DNA from: Thermoanaerobaculia bacterium
GTDB lineage: Bacteria > Acidobacteriota > Thermoanaerobaculia > Multivoradales > Multivoraceae
Assembly (NCBI GenBank): GCA_022824725.1
Contig: JAJDZH010000178.1
Coordinates: 1 to 40,911, forward strand
DNA length: 40,911 bases
Direction of reading: 5' to 3'
The notes beneath the pieces are model-generated. The model was not told the origin of the DNA, made no database searches, and saw only the letters and a list, made by a program, of their open reading frames with translations. Made by a program: the position numbers and the translations under genes. Below are positions 2,600-25,103 of this stretch, one piece after another (within the stretch, counting starts at the first letter, position 1; the number at the start of each line of letters is the position of its first letter).

Positions 2600-2627
2600 G
2601 CCGGCCAGAAGGCCGGCGCACCCAGTG
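2600..2627. repeat. Hairpin repeat module between sufT and phosphatase gene
   Basis: A 7-bp perfect stem (2600-2606 with 2611-2617, loop AGAA) is flanked by the module GCACCCAGTG at 2618-2627. Read on the minus strand it gives CACTGGGTGCGCCGGC followed by GCCGGC. The same 16-base string occurs at 23231-23246 inside the larger element at 23149-23290. It is probably a partial copy of a dispersed REP-like family. Its place between two cistrons could dampen read-through or protect the upstream mRNA end. Confidence 0.65.
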
Positions 2628-9046: not shown

Positions 9047-9073
9047 TGGGTTGCGCGGACGTGAGTCCCGGCT

Positions 9074-17678: not shown

Positions 17679-20240
17679 TCAGCGCAGGAGGACTTCGGTC
17701 GCGCCGTCGCCGCCGGCGGAGGGGAGAGCGGGATCGAAGCCGGCCACCGCCGGGTGGCTTCGCAGGTGCTCGCGAACCGCCCGGCGAAGCCGGCCGCTGC
17801 CGTGGCCATGGACCACGCGAACCCGTTCGCGGCCGGCCGCCAGAGCCCGATCGAGGTAGGCGTCGAGGGAGTCGAGGGCCGGCTCGACCAACTGGCCGAT
17901 CAGGAGCAGCTCCGCTTCCACCGAAGGCGCGGGAGATCTCTGGACCCGGACCCGGCCGGGCGCCGGCCGTTCTCCGCCCGCTACCGCCAGAAGATCGGCG
18001 CCGGGCGCCCGGACCCGCTTGCCGCGGACCAGCACCGTCGCCTGGTCGCCGCGCAGTTCCACGAGCTCACCCAGCCAGCCCAGCGAACGGTGGCGGACAC
18101 GCTCACCGGCAACCAGGGGACGCTGCTCCTCCGGCTGCGACGGTTCCTCCGGTTCCCGTTCCGGCGCGGGGTCGATCTCGCCAGGCGCCCGGGAAGCGCG
18201 ATCGGCCGCCGCCGCCAGGTCCCGGTCGAGTTCTCCGTGCAGGGATGCGGCGGCCCGGGCGAAGGCCCGTTTGCCCGGCCCCCGGGAGGTCGACGACAAC
18301 CCGGCCAGGGCCTCATCCAGCCGGCGGCGGTTCGCCCGCCGCAACGCGTCGACTTCCCGCCCGAGCGCCTTGCCGAGTCGTTCCCTGGCCGCCCGCAGGG
18401 ACTCCTGCCGGGTCTCGAAACGGGCGCGGGCTGTCTCCGTCTCGGCGGTCCGCCGGGCGAGCTCCGCCTCCCGCTCGAGCAGCCGCTCGCGGAGGCGTTC
18501 GTTGCGTTCCAGCACCCGCCGCAGCTTCTGGTGCTCGGAACCCAGGAAGTGCTCGGCCCGCTCCAGCCAGGCCGGCGGCAGGCCGAGGCGACGCGCCAGC
18601 GCCAACGCCTGGCTTCCTCCGGGCGGGCCGACGACCAGCCGGTAGGTGGGCAGGCCGTTCTGCGGATCGAAACCCATCGCGGCGCAGGAGGCCGACTGCG
18701 ACTCGAGGGCGGCCGCGGCAAGCTGGGTGAGGTGGGTCGTCAGGATGCCGAGCGAACCGCGCTCGACCAGCCCCTCGAGCAGGGCGATTCCGAGCGCGGC
18801 GCCCTCCTCCGGGTTCGTCCCGGCGCCGACCTCGTCGAGCAGGACCAGGGTGCGCGGCCCGGCGCGGCGCCACACCTCGCGCAGGCGGAGCAACCGGGCG
18901 CTGAACGTCGACTGCTCGTCGAGGACGCTCTGCTCGTCGCCCACCACCGCCACGACGTGGTCGAGGATCGGCAGGCGACTGTCCCGCCCGGCGGGAACCG
19001 GCAGACCGGCCTGGTTCATCAGGCACAAGAGCCCCACCGTCTTCAGGGCGACCGTCTTGCCGCCGGCGTTCGGACCGGTCAGCACCAGGGTTCTACACCC
19101 CGGCCAGGAACCGCCCGCGCCGCTGCCGATCCCTCCGCGGGAGTCCCCGCCGTGATCGTCCAGCTTCAGGTCCAGCGGCACGACGACGCCCCGGTTGCCG
19201 GCCGCGCCCAGCGCCAGTTCCCTGCGGTCGGCCAGCCGCGGATCGAGCAGCGGGTGGCGGGCGCCGCGGAGTTCGAGCAGCGGCGCTTCGCCGGCCGGAC
19301 CGTCGGATGCGACCGTGGCGAGCACGGCGTCGACGTCGACTGCGAAGCGCGCCGCCGCCTGCATCGCATCGACGGCGGCCAGGAAGTCGATGCGCGCGAC
19401 GATCGCCGGCGTGAGGACCTGCACCTGAGCCACCAGCTCGGCCAGGATGCGGCTGCGCTCGACGTCCTTGTCCGAAGCAAGCCGCTCCATCTCGTCGTTG
19501 CCTTCGACTACCTCCGAGGGTTCGAAGTAGAAGCTCCTGCCCGAGGCGGAGCGGCCCCTGACGAGTCCGGCGAGACGGCCGCGGCTACCCGAGGGAAGGA
19601 GGACCGACAGCCGGCCGCCCCGCATGGGCGTCGAATCGTCCGCCAGGGCGTTGCCGTGCTCCCGCACCCAGGCCTGAAGCGAGGCCTCGACCGAAGCCTG
19701 GGTGCGCCGGGCGTCCCGGACGAGCGTCCGCAGCCGCGGCGTCGCGTCGTCCCGCACCTCGCCGCGCCGGTTCAGCATGCGGCGCAGGCGGCTCGCCAAC
19801 CCGGCGCAGCCTCCGCCATGCTGGCCCGGAGGGACGGCTTGCGCGGCGTCGGCCTCCATCCGTCGCAGCGTCTCGACCTCGGCGGCGCATTGCGGCGTGG
19901 CGCCGGGACTCTCCAGCCGTCCCACCACCTCCTCGCTGGCCTCGATCGCCGCGGCCAGGTCGAGCAACTCCGGACCGCCCAAGCCTCGACCGTCCCCTTC
20001 GAGATGAGAGCAGAGGTCGAGAAGCCCATCGAGCGACGGCACCAGGACACCGTCCCGTTCGACCTCCCGGGCGATCTCCGCGTAGCGAACCCGCCGCCGC
20101 TCGATCTCGTCGCGGTCGGTTTCCGGCGCGATGGCGCGGACCGCCCGGCCCCCTATGTCGGTCGAAGCGAAACCCGCGAGGACGGCGAGCAGCGACGGAA
20201 ACTCGAGCGCCTCGGAGGTAGCGGCGCTACAACAACTCAT
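17679..20240 (-). CDS. mutS2: MutS2 family ATPase with degenerate-looking Smr tail
   Basis: MutS2 (853 residues) acts on recombination intermediates and, in Bacillus, on collided ribosomes. The ATPase has Walker A TGPNAGGKTVALKTVG near residue 388, the Walker B segment LVLLDEVGAGTNPEEGAALG, and the switch His of LTTHLTQLAA. A long arginine-rich coiled coil follows (about 520-640), then a beta-barrel-like stretch and a C-terminal Smr domain. In the Smr domain the HGHGSGRLRRAV motif (near 812) is kept, but the usual LDLRG-x-R strand is replaced by LLLIGQLVEPALD. The gene lies between rpsU and dnaG, an insertion into the classic operon. ATG start at 20240. Confidence 0.95.
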   Translation of the reverse strand: MSCCSAATSEALEFPSLLAVLAGFASTDIGGRAVRAIAPETDRDEIERRRVRYAEIAREVERDGVLVPSLDGLLDLCSHLEGDGRGLGGPELLDLAAAIEASEEVVGRLESPGATPQCAAEVETLRRMEADAAQAVPPGQHGGGCAGLASRLRRMLNRRGEVRDDATPRLRTLVRDARRTQASVEASLQAWVREHGNALADDSTPMRGGRLSVLLPSGSRGRLAGLVRGRSASGRSFYFEPSEVVEGNDEMERLASDKDVERSRILAELVAQVQVLTPAIVARIDFLAAVDAMQAAARFAVDVDAVLATVASDGPAGEAPLLELRGARHPLLDPRLADRRELALGAAGNRGVVVPLDLKLDDHGGDSRGGIGSGAGGSWPGCRTLVLTGPNAGGKTVALKTVGLLCLMNQAGLPVPAGRDSRLPILDHVVAVVGDEQSVLDEQSTFSARLLRLREVWRRAGPRTLVLLDEVGAGTNPEEGAALGIALLEGLVERGSLGILTTHLTQLAAAALESQSASCAAMGFDPQNGLPTYRLVVGPPGGSQALALARRLGLPPAWLERAEHFLGSEHQKLRRVLERNERLRERLLEREAELARRTAETETARARFETRQESLRAARERLGKALGREVDALRRANRRRLDEALAGLSSTSRGPGKRAFARAAASLHGELDRDLAAAADRASRAPGEIDPAPEREPEEPSQPEEQRPLVAGERVRHRSLGWLGELVELRGDQATVLVRGKRVRAPGADLLAVAGGERPAPGRVRVQRSPAPSVEAELLLIGQLVEPALDSLDAYLDRALAAGRERVRVVHGHGSGRLRRAVREHLRSHPAVAGFDPALPSAGGDGATEVLLR

Positions 20241-21685: not shown

Positions 21686-22426
21686 ATGGAACGAGTCCTC
21701 GACACGATCGTAGATCTGCAGCAGGCGAGCCTGGAACTCGCCCACAGCCGCGCCCTTCTGGACGGGGTTCCCGAGTCGATGCAGGAGCTCCACGACCAGT
21801 ACGTGCACCAGCGGAGCGAGATCGAACGGCTCGAGCAGGAGTGCCAGCAGGCCGAACTCGAGCGCCGCGCCGCGGAAGCAGAAGCGGCGGCGGGAAAGGA
21901 GAGCATCGAGCGCTACCAGGAGCAGATCGCCCGCGTCACGACGCAGCGCGAGTACGGCGCTCTTCTGAGTGAGATCGACACGGTGCGCGCCGGCATGCGG
22001 GAAGCGGACGAGCAGGCTCTCCTGGCCATCGAGCGCCAGGACGAGGCGTCGGCGCAGCTCGACGAGATCCGCGGCGCGTTCGAGACGCTCGACCAGCAGT
22101 ACCAGGAGCAGCTCGCCGTGTGGGAAGAGCAGAAGCCCGAAATGCGCAAGCGGGTCGAAACGCTCGAGGGGCAGATCGAGGTGTTTCGTGAACGCCTCCC
22201 GCCGGCCGCCCTCCTCCAGTACGAGCGCCTGTTCGACCGCCACGGCGGCGCGCCGCTGGCCGCCATCGGAGTCGTCGAGAGTACCGGCGCTCCCATCCGG
22301 CACTGTTCGTTCTGCAACTACCGGATCAGGCCTCAGGTCGTCGTCCAGATTCAGACCCAGGGCGCGCTCGTACCCTGCGACTCCTGCCAGCGAATCCTGT
22401 ACCTGGACGGCGGAGAGACCGGCTGA
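21686..22426 (+). CDS. Coiled-coil protein with C4-type zinc ribbon (DUF164/CdsZ-like)
   Basis: Protein of 246 residues. Residues about 5-170 form a long helical coiled coil (for example EIERLEQECQQAELERRAAE). The C-terminal end is a zinc ribbon with two knuckles, HCSFCNYRI and VPCDSCQRILYL, giving four Cys ligands. This matches the C4-type zinc ribbon family (COG1579), which commonly sits next to genes of the YggS or Nif3 type in GC-rich bacteria. Function is not settled; a chlamydial member has been linked to type III secretion and others to nucleic-acid binding. It follows the tRNA by 58 bp with no clear promoter, and its stop abuts the yggS region. Confidence 0.88.
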   Translation: MERVLDTIVDLQQASLELAHSRALLDGVPESMQELHDQYVHQRSEIERLEQECQQAELERRAAEAEAAAGKESIERYQEQIARVTTQREYGALLSEIDTVRAGMREADEQALLAIERQDEASAQLDEIRGAFETLDQQYQEQLAVWEEQKPEMRKRVETLEGQIEVFRERLPPAALLQYERLFDRHGGAPLAAIGVVESTGAPIRHCSFCNYRIRPQVVVQIQTQGALVPCDSCQRILYLDGGETG

Positions 22427-22470
22427 GCGAGGCGCCGGGGAAGACGGCGGCCGAACGCTACGCGGAGATA

Positions 22471-23148
22471 GTGGAGCGGCTGGCGGAGGCCTGCCGGCAG
22501 GCAGGCAGGGAGCCGGAAGAGGTCGCCCTGGTCGGCGCCTGCAAGCGGCAGCCGCTCGACCGCATCGCCGCGGCGCTGGACGCCGGCCTCCGCATCCTCG
22601 GCGAGAACCAGGTGCAGGAGGGCGAGGCGCACCGCGCGGCGCTGGTCGACGCCGGCTACAGCGACCGGGTCGCCTGGCACCTGATCGGACCGCTGCAGTC
22701 GAACAAGGCGGCCCGCGCCTGCGACGCCTTCGACGTGTTCGAAGCGGTCGACCGGCCGAAGATCGCGGAGCGGCTCGACCGTGTGCTCGGCAGCCGGGGA
22801 CTCGGCGTCCGCGGCTGCCTGCTCGAAGTGAACATCGGCCGCGAACCCAGCAAGCACGGCTTCCTGCCCGAGGACACGGAAGCGATGCTGCGCATCGGCG
22901 AACTCGACCATCTGCGGGTGCGCGGCCTGATGGCGATTCCGCCGCCGCGCTCCGACGCGGGCGAGTCCCGCGCCGACTTTGCCGCTCTCAGGCGCCTGCG
23001 CGACCGGCTGGCCCGCGGCGGCCTGTTCGGCGACCGGGAGGGATGGCTGTCGATGGGCATGAGCGCCGACTTCGAGGCCGCGGTCCTCGAGGGCGCCAGC
23101 CACGTGCGGATCGGTTCCGCGTTGTTCGGAGAGCGGCCGCGGCGATAA
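22471..23148 (+). CDS. yggS: YggS/PLPBP family PLP-homeostasis protein
   Basis: PLP-binding protein of 225 residues from the GTG start, involved in vitamin B6 and amino-acid balance, without known catalysis. It is a single TIM-barrel: the PLP lysine is in VALVGACKRQP, followed by ILGENQVQEGEAH, AWHLIGPLQSNKA, LLEVNIGREPSKHGF, RGLMAIPPP, and the phosphate-binding end WLSMGMSADFEAA and ASHVRIGSALFGER. The usual VSK before the lysine is here ACK. The frame stays open back to a CTG at 22423 that overlaps the previous stop (CTGA). Residues upstream (ERYAEIVERLAEAC) look like the missing first helix, so the real start may be there rather than at the GTG. Confidence 0.9.
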   Translation: MERLAEACRQAGREPEEVALVGACKRQPLDRIAAALDAGLRILGENQVQEGEAHRAALVDAGYSDRVAWHLIGPLQSNKAARACDAFDVFEAVDRPKIAERLDRVLGSRGLGVRGCLLEVNIGREPSKHGFLPEDTEAMLRIGELDHLRVRGLMAIPPPRSDAGESRADFAALRRLRDRLARGGLFGDREGWLSMGMSADFEAAVLEGASHVRIGSALFGERPRR

Positions 23149-23290
23149 GGTCGCCGCTTCGCGGCGGCTATGTCGACGCCGCCTCCGGCGGCAGCGGGTC
23201 AGAAGACCCGCGCACCCAGTTGGCGCGGCACACTGGGTGCGCCGGCGCCCTCGCCGGCTTCTGAAGACAACGCGCCGCGAAGCGGCGACC
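23149..23290. repeat. Compound palindromic intergenic element (MITE/REP-like)
   Basis: A 142-bp element begins at the base after the yggS stop. Its ends are a perfect 18-bp inverted repeat: GGTCGCCGCTTCGCGGCG (23149-23166) and its complement at 23273-23290. Nested inside are TCAGAAG/CTTCTGA (23199-23205 and 23258-23264) and GCGCACCCAGT/ACTGGGTGCGC (23210-23220 and 23232-23242), plus smaller hairpins. It has no coding potential. The inner module recurs at 2600-2627. Symmetry and nesting suggest a non-autonomous mobile element or a structured REP unit. No flanking target duplication was clear. Confidence 0.75.
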
Positions 23291-23321
23291 ATCCCGCCGC
23301 GCTAGTGCTAGCGTCTACTGC

Positions 23322-25103
23322 TTGGAGTCTCTTTCCGATCTGCTTCGAGTCGTAGCGGAACGCTACGGCGAACGCGAGGCCCTGCTGTCCATCCGGCGCC
23401 ATCGCCGGACGGACTCGCTTTCCGCGCGGGAGTTCCTCGACGCCGTCTGCCGGACCGCCTGGGCGCTCGAGTCGCGCGGCGTGGCGAAGGGCGACCGTGT
23501 GGCGCTGTTCGCGACCAACCGGCCGGAGTGGCACATCGTCGACTTCGCCTGCCACCTGCTGGGCGCCGTTTCCGTGCCGATCTATCCGACTCTCAACGCG
23601 CCCCAGGTCGCCTACATCCTGCTCGACAGCGGCGCCGGCTGGATCTTCTACGACGACAAGGCGAAACGGGACCTGCTGTCGGGCATCGTTCCCAGCGACG
23701 GCGGCGAGGACGACCAGAACGGCGATGAGCAGCGCGGTCTGCGCATGGTGGCGCTGGATGCCGAGGCCGCCGCCCCCGGCGGCACCCACCTCGAAGCCCT
23801 GATCGCCGGGGCGCCGCCGGCCACGGATGCCGACCTCGCCACGTTCAGCGGGCGGGTCGGCCGGGACGACACGGCGAGCATCATCTACACCTCCGGCACG
23901 ACCGGCGACCCCAAGGGCGTCGTCCTGTCGCACCGGAACTTCGTCTCGAACATCCTGGCCTGCCAGGAGCTCTATCCGCTGGGGGAGGACGATCAGGCGC
24001 TCTCCTTCCTGCCGCTCTCCCACGTGTTCGAGCGCACGGTCGACTACCTCTTCTTCTACCGCGGGGTGTCGATCCACTACTCCCCCGCGATCGAGCGTGT
24101 CGCCGGCCTGATGCCGGACGTGCGGCCCACCGTCCTGTGTTCGGTGCCCAGGCTCTACGAGAGCGCCTACCTGCGTATTCAGAACCTCTTCGCGAGCCAG
24201 CCGCCGGCCCGCCGCCGGCTGATCGCCTGGGCGCTCAAGGTCGGCAAGCGGCGCGCTGAGCGCGGCGGCGCGGCGCTCCAGGGCCTGATCGCCGACCGCC
24301 TCGTGTTCCGCAAGATCAAGCAGCGCTTCGGGGGCCGCCTGCGGTTCGCCATTTCAGGCGGCGCCGCGATCGCCAATGAAGTCGCCGAGTTCTTCGACGC
24401 GATCGGCATCCGCCTCTACCAGGGTTACGGATTGACCGAAACCGCACCGGTTCTGGCAGTCGAGTACCCGGGCGCCTCCCGCCGGGGCTCCGTCGGCAAG
24501 GCCGCTCCCGGGGTCTCGCTTCGCATCGCGGACGACGGCGAGATCCTCGCCCGCACCGACGGCCTGATGCAGGGCTACTGGAAGAAGCCCCAGGCCACCG
24601 CCGAGGCGATCGACCCGGACGGCTGGTTCCACACCGGCGACATCGGCCGTCTCGACGACGACGGCTACCTCTACATCACGGACCGCAAGAAGGACCTCCT
24701 GGTGACGAGCGGCGGCAAGAACGTGGCGCCCCAGCCGATCGAGCAGATGCTGATCACGCACCCCGCGATCGCCCAGGTGGTCGTGGTCGGCGACGGCTAC
24801 CCGTACCTCAATGCCCTGATCGTCCCGAACTACGCGGAGCCGCCGGCGCCGTTCACCGGCATGGACCCCTCGGAACTCCGCCAGGACCCGCGCCTCCAGG
24901 AGCTCGTCCAGGGCGTGCTCGACCGCGCCAACGAGCGGCTGCCGACCCACGAGCGCGTGCGCCGCTTCCGGCTGCTCGAGCGGGAACTGACGCTGGAGGA
25001 GGGCGAGATCACGCCCACGCTGAAGGTGCGCAGGAAGATCGTCAACGAGCGCTACCGCGACGTGATTGCCTCGATGTACCTCAAGAGCCAGCGCGTCAGT
25101 TGA
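23322..25103 (+). CDS. Long-chain fatty acid--CoA ligase (AMP-forming)
   Basis: Adenylate-forming enzyme of 593 residues that activates fatty acids to acyl-CoA for breakdown or lipid synthesis. Motifs: SIIYTSGTTGDPKGVVLSH (phosphate loop) near residue 190, SFLPLSHVFERTVDYLFF, RLYQGYGLTETAPVLAVE, DGWFHTGDIGRLDDDGYL, and YITDRKKDLLVTSGGKNVAP. The SHVFERT and KNVAPQPIE texts are typical of the long-chain (LACS/FAA-like) group. The best start is TTG at 23322 (MESLSDLLRVVAERYGEREA); the leader before it lies in the palindromic element. It is convergent with the DUF3467 gene. Confidence 0.93.
   Translation: MESLSDLLRVVAERYGEREALLSIRRHRRTDSLSAREFLDAVCRTAWALESRGVAKGDRVALFATNRPEWHIVDFACHLLGAVSVPIYPTLNAPQVAYILLDSGAGWIFYDDKAKRDLLSGIVPSDGGEDDQNGDEQRGLRMVALDAEAAAPGGTHLEALIAGAPPATDADLATFSGRVGRDDTASIIYTSGTTGDPKGVVLSHRNFVSNILACQELYPLGEDDQALSFLPLSHVFERTVDYLFFYRGVSIHYSPAIERVAGLMPDVRPTVLCSVPRLYESAYLRIQNLFASQPPARRRLIAWALKVGKRRAERGGAALQGLIADRLVFRKIKQRFGGRLRFAISGGAAIANEVAEFFDAIGIRLYQGYGLTETAPVLAVEYPGASRRGSVGKAAPGVSLRIADDGEILARTDGLMQGYWKKPQATAEAIDPDGWFHTGDIGRLDDDGYLYITDRKKDLLVTSGGKNVAPQPIEQMLITHPAIAQVVVVGDGYPYLNALIVPNYAEPPAPFTGMDPSELRQDPRLQELVQGVLDRANERLPTHERVRRFRLLERELTLEEGEITPTLKVRRKIVNERYRDVIASMYLKSQRVS

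Follow-up and report, generated by a model that had tools for sequence, protein, structure and literature searches.

Tail-to-tail REP-like elements behind yggS and a REP/RAYT system with an unusual foot tag in a genus of Acidobacteriota

What is the compound palindrome that begins directly behind a yggS stop codon in a Thermoanaerobaculia genome, and how would it have arrived there? An earlier note on the window (the whole stretch of DNA analysed, 40,911 bp) had described positions 23149-23290 as a perfect 18-bp terminal inverted repeat with further inverted repeats nested inside, typical of a MITE or of a complex REP unit. We followed the sequence through its own genome (G000, a draft of 3.72 Mb in 490 contigs), the other 20 genomes of the genus and 20 genomes of other genera. 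The feature is two separately acquired REP-like elements, one of type A and one of type B, fused tail to tail.

Anatomy of the palindrome

The arms proved to be as described, 23149-23166 being the exact reverse complement of 23273-23290, and within the window they form the only perfect 18-bp inverted pair spanning at most 300 bp. The placement directly after the yggS stop was also correct, in that the YggS-family ORF ends one base before 23149. The 18-bp "terminal repeat" is formed by the hairpin 1 of A and that of B, the two elements being joined at their tails. The parts, their neighbors and a further REP of the window are as follows.

22471-23148, plus strand: YggS-family gene (TIGR00044, 158.7 bits); upstream context, outside the element
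23149-23219, plus strand: REP-like element of type A, composed of hairpin 1, spacer, hairpin 2, REP hairpin and tail GCACCCAG, a layout common to 30 A units from loci of the same genome
23150-23168, plus strand: hairpin 1 of A, the left arm of the 18-bp inverted repeat
23178-23192, plus strand: hairpin 2 of A (GCCGCC-TCC-GGCGGC)
23194-23211, plus strand: REP hairpin of A (GCGGGTC-AGAA-GACCCGC), with 135 hairpin-plus-tail copies in the genome and none in the reversed control
23212-23219, minus strand: tag of A, which reads CTGGGTGC on the minus strand at the 5' foot of the REP hairpin and is conserved at the foot of RAYT-flanking hairpins
23220-23305, minus strand: REP-like element of type B, composed of hairpin 1, spacer, REP hairpin and tail; copies are 95-99% identical over 23220-23300
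23233-23240, plus strand: the corresponding CTGGGTGC tag of B, again at the 5' foot of the REP hairpin
23241-23258, minus strand: REP hairpin of B (GCCGGCG-AGGG-CGCCGGC), with 197 hairpin-plus-tail copies in the genome and none in the reversed control
23273-23290, minus strand: hairpin 1 region of B, the right arm of the 18-bp inverted repeat
23322-25103, plus strand: acyl-CoA ligase-like ORF (best model FadD11, score below its cut-off); downstream context, outside the element
2600-2627, plus strand: second, minimal REP of the window, a type C hairpin (GCCGGCC-AGAA-GGCCGGC) followed by GCACCCAGTG, flanked by two genes of the minus strand

Type B has the same tail as A, and many of its aligned copies carry outer CTAGC/GCTAG ends. 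The B element of the window is truncated at the tail-side end, where full copies continue to GACAGACTGCTAG. The CTAG ends were considered as a transposition target and dropped, as the copies vary there. Hairpin 1 differs among the A units yet still pairs, in GCCGC-TTC-GCGGC, GCCGGCC/GGCCGGC and GGGC/GCCC forms. The variants differ in register, as judged from 28 of the 30 units that were aligned, two tandem copies being left out.

Inner inverted pairs do exist (23207-23220 and 23232-23245 are 93% complementary), although a series of local hairpins is the more accurate picture of the interior. The one correction to the earlier description concerns the extent: 142 bp fits the arms, but the right-hand element runs on to about 23305. 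The sequence was said to have no coding capacity; mechanical ORFs at 21969-23264 (plus strand) and 22351-23292 (minus strand) cross it, with no sign of either being a gene. Folding was strong both as RNA (23140-23300, z = -9.75) and as DNA (23149-23290, z = -8.63), with none of 200 shuffles equaling either value, and the DNA fold of element A by itself (23150-23220) gave z = -4.45. Head-to-tail arrays of REP parts were observed at loci L048 (39 bp), L046 (64 bp), L016 (about 21 bp) and L057 (about 980-1090 and 2050-2140, about 20-21 bp).

Copies, placement and turnover

A search of G000 with a 161-bp query gave matches at 55 places, and both halves of the query were covered only in the window, the remaining places matching one half or the other. 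The earlier note had held that a single copy without relatives elsewhere would refute its reading; the exact 142-bp fusion is indeed single-copy but its parts are multi-copy, so the objection fails for the parts. A 13-base tail pattern was found at 220 sites in G000 versus 0 for a reversed-pattern control. The 20 other genomes of the genus had 10 to 198 sites, the lowest (G019; 10, control 5) being not clearly above background, and the 20 genomes of other genera had 0 to 14 (maximum in G022; 14, control 2). Similarity searches gave strong matches in all 21 genomes of the genus and marginal ones (E 5e-4 to 1e-3) in 4 of the 20 others. Stem-specific patterns for hairpin plus tail gave 135 units of type A, 197 of B, 19 of C and 0 of D in G000, and their reversed controls gave 0 in each of the 21 genomes. 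These patterns demand perfect stems and therefore the counts are lower bounds and by themselves no evidence of covariation. These are short hairpin-forming palindromes, together present in more than about 100 copies in G000. They also occur in inverted pairs or clusters, as in the window pair, the pairs at RAYT genes and the arrays. Of 84 matches placed relative to genes, 56 were intergenic (32 in convergent, 22 in tandem and 2 in divergent gaps), 20 lay inside a called gene and 8 at a locus edge, as judged with a crude gene caller on loci selected by similarity.

The yggS site itself varies across the genus. YggS orthologues were found in 20 of the 21 genomes (as two fragments in G016). Behind the stop codon there is no REP hairpin in G001, G002, G003, G004, G010, G014, G016, G017 and G020, and a longer unrelated spacer in G015 and G019. 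The site is occupied by A alone in G013, by an A-like element in G005 and G008, by a B-like element in G006 and G011 and likewise in G018 (there with another palindrome inside), by an array in G007 and by a different hairpin element in G009. At the orthologous site of close relatives, where 40 kb is mostly 94-97% identical, G003, G004 and G017 are without the element, G013 has A and the window has A plus B. Sites that are empty or hold A alone in such close relatives indicate that the elements come and go. The difference at yggS may be a gain or a loss. G003 (L184) and G004 (L183) retain only the eight bases GCACCCGG where G013 has the whole of A, which may be either the scar of a precise loss or a pre-existing target. 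Retention of GCACCCGG in both genomes would fit GCACCC being part of the target and not of the element; it is missing from G014, a more distant relative, and may equally be a scar.

Comparisons among the window and contigs of three relatives (72 orthologous comparisons) revealed many more differences, mostly of 54 to 308 bp. Some are clean single gaps, for example the 146 bp present in G013 versus both G003 and G004; other differences were untidy. The type C REP at 2600-2627 has a similar counterpart in G004 and G013, and the counterpart is missing in G003 and G017. At window positions 9058-9062, G003, G004, G013 and G017 have about 830-850 bp extra with one REP tail motif within it. At 19094-19151, 58 bp inside a called gene (17679-20240, minus strand) stand against 1 bp in G003, G004 and G013, a 57-bp in-frame difference. 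Behind yggS in G018 (L193) and G007 (L195) the loop of a REP hairpin contains a different palindromic repeat, as though REP loops were the target of a second element family.

Given these data, the first proposal of the earlier note, a MITE with an 18-bp terminal inverted repeat, is not supported. Under that reading one transposon with 18-bp terminal inverted repeats would have been moved by a DDE transposase, as the perfect arms enclosing a 142-bp unit suggest, and other units with long inverted ends do exist, such as the 146-bp insert of G013. However, the arms are the first hairpins of two different and opposed elements, the full unit is single-copy whereas each half is multi-copy alone, and in G013 the left half stands alone at this very site. 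The alignments of relatives gave no exact target-site duplication at the yggS site, a feature which the earlier note had suggested as a check. We consider a MITE extremely improbable. Another reading is that the yggS transcript has a functional RNA or terminator here, with hairpins kept for termination or mRNA protection rather than for mobility: the fold is very stable, it lies directly behind the stop codon, and intergenic copies are mostly in convergent or same-direction gaps. This reading is nevertheless very improbable in view of the relatives that are without the element behind yggS, the copies behind unrelated genes, the lack of any Rfam match and the presence of the repeats on the flanks of a transposase gene. 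A secondary role of this kind is possible for the element, and any effect on the mRNA of yggS or of the ligase would be a side effect.

A RAYT gene among the repeats

G000 encodes one Y1 transposase (C119, L057:1159-1827). Its best family is REP_Tyr_transpos (NCBIfam), at 78.5 bits versus a cut-off of 80; a second member from the genus (L090) scored 81.6 bits, above the cut-off, and the RAYT model matched 30 of 30 homologues from the wider family at E <= 1e-3. The alignment of the wider family covered 30 of 80 homologues, taken from the top of the list, with L125 dropped owing to a stop in frame. Within the genus, Pfam (Y1_Tnp match above cut-off) and a genus-specific profile agreed on 13 RAYT genes in 12 of the 21 genomes, and neither detected a RAYT in the remaining 9. 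The HUH motif (NHVH) and the tyrosine motif (Y-x-x-x-N-P) are invariant in all 13 proteins, each motif being found in an alignment in which L086 is shortened. Among solved structures, 4ER8, in which a RAYT binds a REP hairpin, is closest to the predicted fold, a modest model (mean pLDDT 78.4, below 50 for the first 23 residues). A sequence search of solved structures matched 4ER8 weakly (E 3.9e-4), and the fold search was clearer.

The G000 gene is bracketed on both sides by inverted pairs of the form CTGGGTGC-hairpin ... hairpin-GCACCCAG. Taken together, the flanks of the 13 RAYT loci contain 60 tail motifs in 29.7 kb, versus 0.15 per kb in the window. At least one standard tail motif was present in the flanks of 11 of the 13 loci; L081 and L082 had none, L082 having a GCACCGACA variant. 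The earlier note had asked for a REP-associated transposase, and one is present in the same genome with the repeats in its flanks. Its second proposal, a complex REP unit, was right in kind, because the parts are multi-copy, inverted in pairing and mostly intergenic and because the genome has a REP-associated transposase gene flanked by them.

REP type also agrees with RAYT type. When each RAYT was typed by the REP adjoining it, mean counts of the cognate REP were 81 for A, 175 for B, 115 for C and 61 for D. The same REPs averaged 47, 49, 42 and 7, respectively, in genomes with another RAYT and 32, 66, 27 and 3 in genomes without a RAYT. None of 20,000 label permutations reached the observed rank sum, kinship among the genomes being uncorrected. 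Total REP units were also higher in genomes having a RAYT (p = 0.013, again for related genomes with kinship uncorrected). Two observations count against the link. Four genomes (G004, G006, G016 and G018) have 190-309 units despite no detected RAYT, and the RAYT of G000 is of type B, no RAYT for the A copies being seen in the draft. The source of those A copies would then be a RAYT since lost, or one that the draft does not include.

The RAYT genes in this genome and genus, the repeats in their flanks and the match of types together indicate a REP/RAYT system in an Acidobacteriota genus. We therefore think it very probable that the tail-to-tail A/B pair consists of non-autonomous REP-like elements that arrived separately behind yggS and were moved by a RAYT encoded elsewhere. 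Each element is a chain of DNA hairpins in which the REP hairpin bears CTGGGTGC, the putative guide, at its 5' foot. The single-copy RAYT (an HUH/Y1 transposase) would bind the tagged hairpin in single-stranded DNA, cut beside it and rejoin it elsewhere, and the places where copies are tolerated would lie mostly downstream of genes. The feature in the window is then nothing out of the ordinary, two elements having landed side by side. Further points against this account are the sub-cut-off score of the G000 RAYT, the two RAYT loci without a standard tail motif (L081 and L082) and a tag other than the GT[AG]G of the RAYTs studied so far. Spread without a dedicated enzyme, the hairpins multiplying by recombination or slippage during replication, would accord with the tandem arrays of units, with some REP-rich genomes in which no RAYT was detected and with some untidy differences between relatives. 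However, such passive spread is very improbable given the dispersal to hundreds of separate places, the location of RAYT genes amid the repeats and the agreement of REP type with the RAYT of the genome.

The foot tag and known REP systems

RAYT-tied REPs are reported with GT(A/G)G heads (PMC2817692; PMC6006769), and a second REP class is reported with a CGTC tag and no associated transposase gene (PMC3733652). Here, the hairpin foot is neither GT[AG]G nor CGTC; it is CTGGGTGC, and the RAYTs of the genus adjoin hairpins with this foot (10 of the 13 loci viewed).

In other respects, the system resembles the GT[AG]G-tagged REPs, BIMEs and REPINs with their RAYTs (TnpA-REP), as described in PMC2817692 and PMC3733652: short hairpins rich in GC and numbering in the hundreds, arrangement in clusters and inverted pairs, probably a location mostly downstream of genes, a low-copy REP-flanked RAYT and a REP type that matches the RAYT type. 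It differs from those accounts in the CTGGGTGC foot, the chains of two or three hairpins and the host phylum, Acidobacteriota. CGTC REPs are likewise tagged palindromic repeats, but the tag differs, and PMC3733652 reports no transposase gene for them. TIRYT genes, which have long terminal inverted repeats with the consensus GGGGWSAS, provide another comparison, being RAYT-like genes outside the GTAG world, some from Acidobacteria and some with repeats in dimers or clusters (PMC3733652). Unlike the TIRYT repeats, the motif here is at a hairpin foot (CTGGG[AT]NC), and by eye CTGGGTGC does not fit GGGGWSAS; the TIRs were compared by description only, and the two groups may overlap. Among TnpA-Y1 proteins, subclass 2.7 appears nearest as judged by the table motifs only of PMC6006769 (NHVH, Y---NP and a length near 213 residues), but that subclass is reported with GT[AG]G tags and, in the table, has W followed by Q. 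In E. coli TnpA-REP, W94, Q95 and R104 are given as well conserved in REP-linked subclasses (PMC6006769); in our alignment W94-Q95 corresponds to a W followed by M in all 13 RAYTs of the genus.

We looked for the tag beyond the genus in the best 80 homologues of at least 541 relatives, a set of which 7 are from this genus and of which 40 loci were inspected by eye. A hairpin with a TGGG[AT][AG]C foot lay within 500 bp in 36 of these 80. Among loci with full flanks it was present in 30 of 63 versus 3 of 50 control windows located 2-2.5 kb away. Neither known tag was enriched near these homologues: GT[AG]G was found in 13 of 80 (10 of 63 full-flank loci versus 7 of 50 controls) and CGTC in 5 of 80 (5 of 63 versus 9 of 50). 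A search with no preset motif of the 73 non-genus loci (from the L090-L169 set, part of which had already been inspected by eye) returned CTGGG, three bases from the stem, as the top foot word, in 32 loci versus 2 of 71 distal controls. The complete feet seen most often were CTGGGAGC and CTGGGAAC. GT[AG]G stood exactly at the foot in 5 of the 73, and the CTGGG-type tag was absent from more than half of them.

The open-access literature available to us, comprising parts of PMC3733652, PMC6006769, PMC2817692, PMC8266576 and PMC12306157, yielded no CTGGG foot tag, and we found no report there of the REP/RAYT system of this genus. REPs are among the commonest bacterial repeats, and in the accessible literature their spread is tied to RAYTs via the single tag GT[AG]G. 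A differently tagged RAYT branch, found in several lineages of a single genus that each have a REP stem of their own, provides matched enzyme/substrate pairs for studying what determines the guide and how repeats evolve together with a domesticated transposase. There is also a warning for annotation, in that tools requiring GT[AG]G miss CTGGGTGC-tagged repeats. On balance, we lean slightly toward a third, unnamed REP superfamily having a CTGGG[AT]NC foot tag and its own RAYT branch across many bacterial phyla, in which the guide would have changed together with a residue that reads it (Q95 of E. coli, M in the 13 RAYTs of the genus). The tagged loci carry the names Acidobacteria, Verrucomicrobia, Prosthecobacter, Roseiflexus, Thermoflexia, Chthonomonadales, Kapabacteria and Bacteroidaceae, together with several proteobacterial bins.
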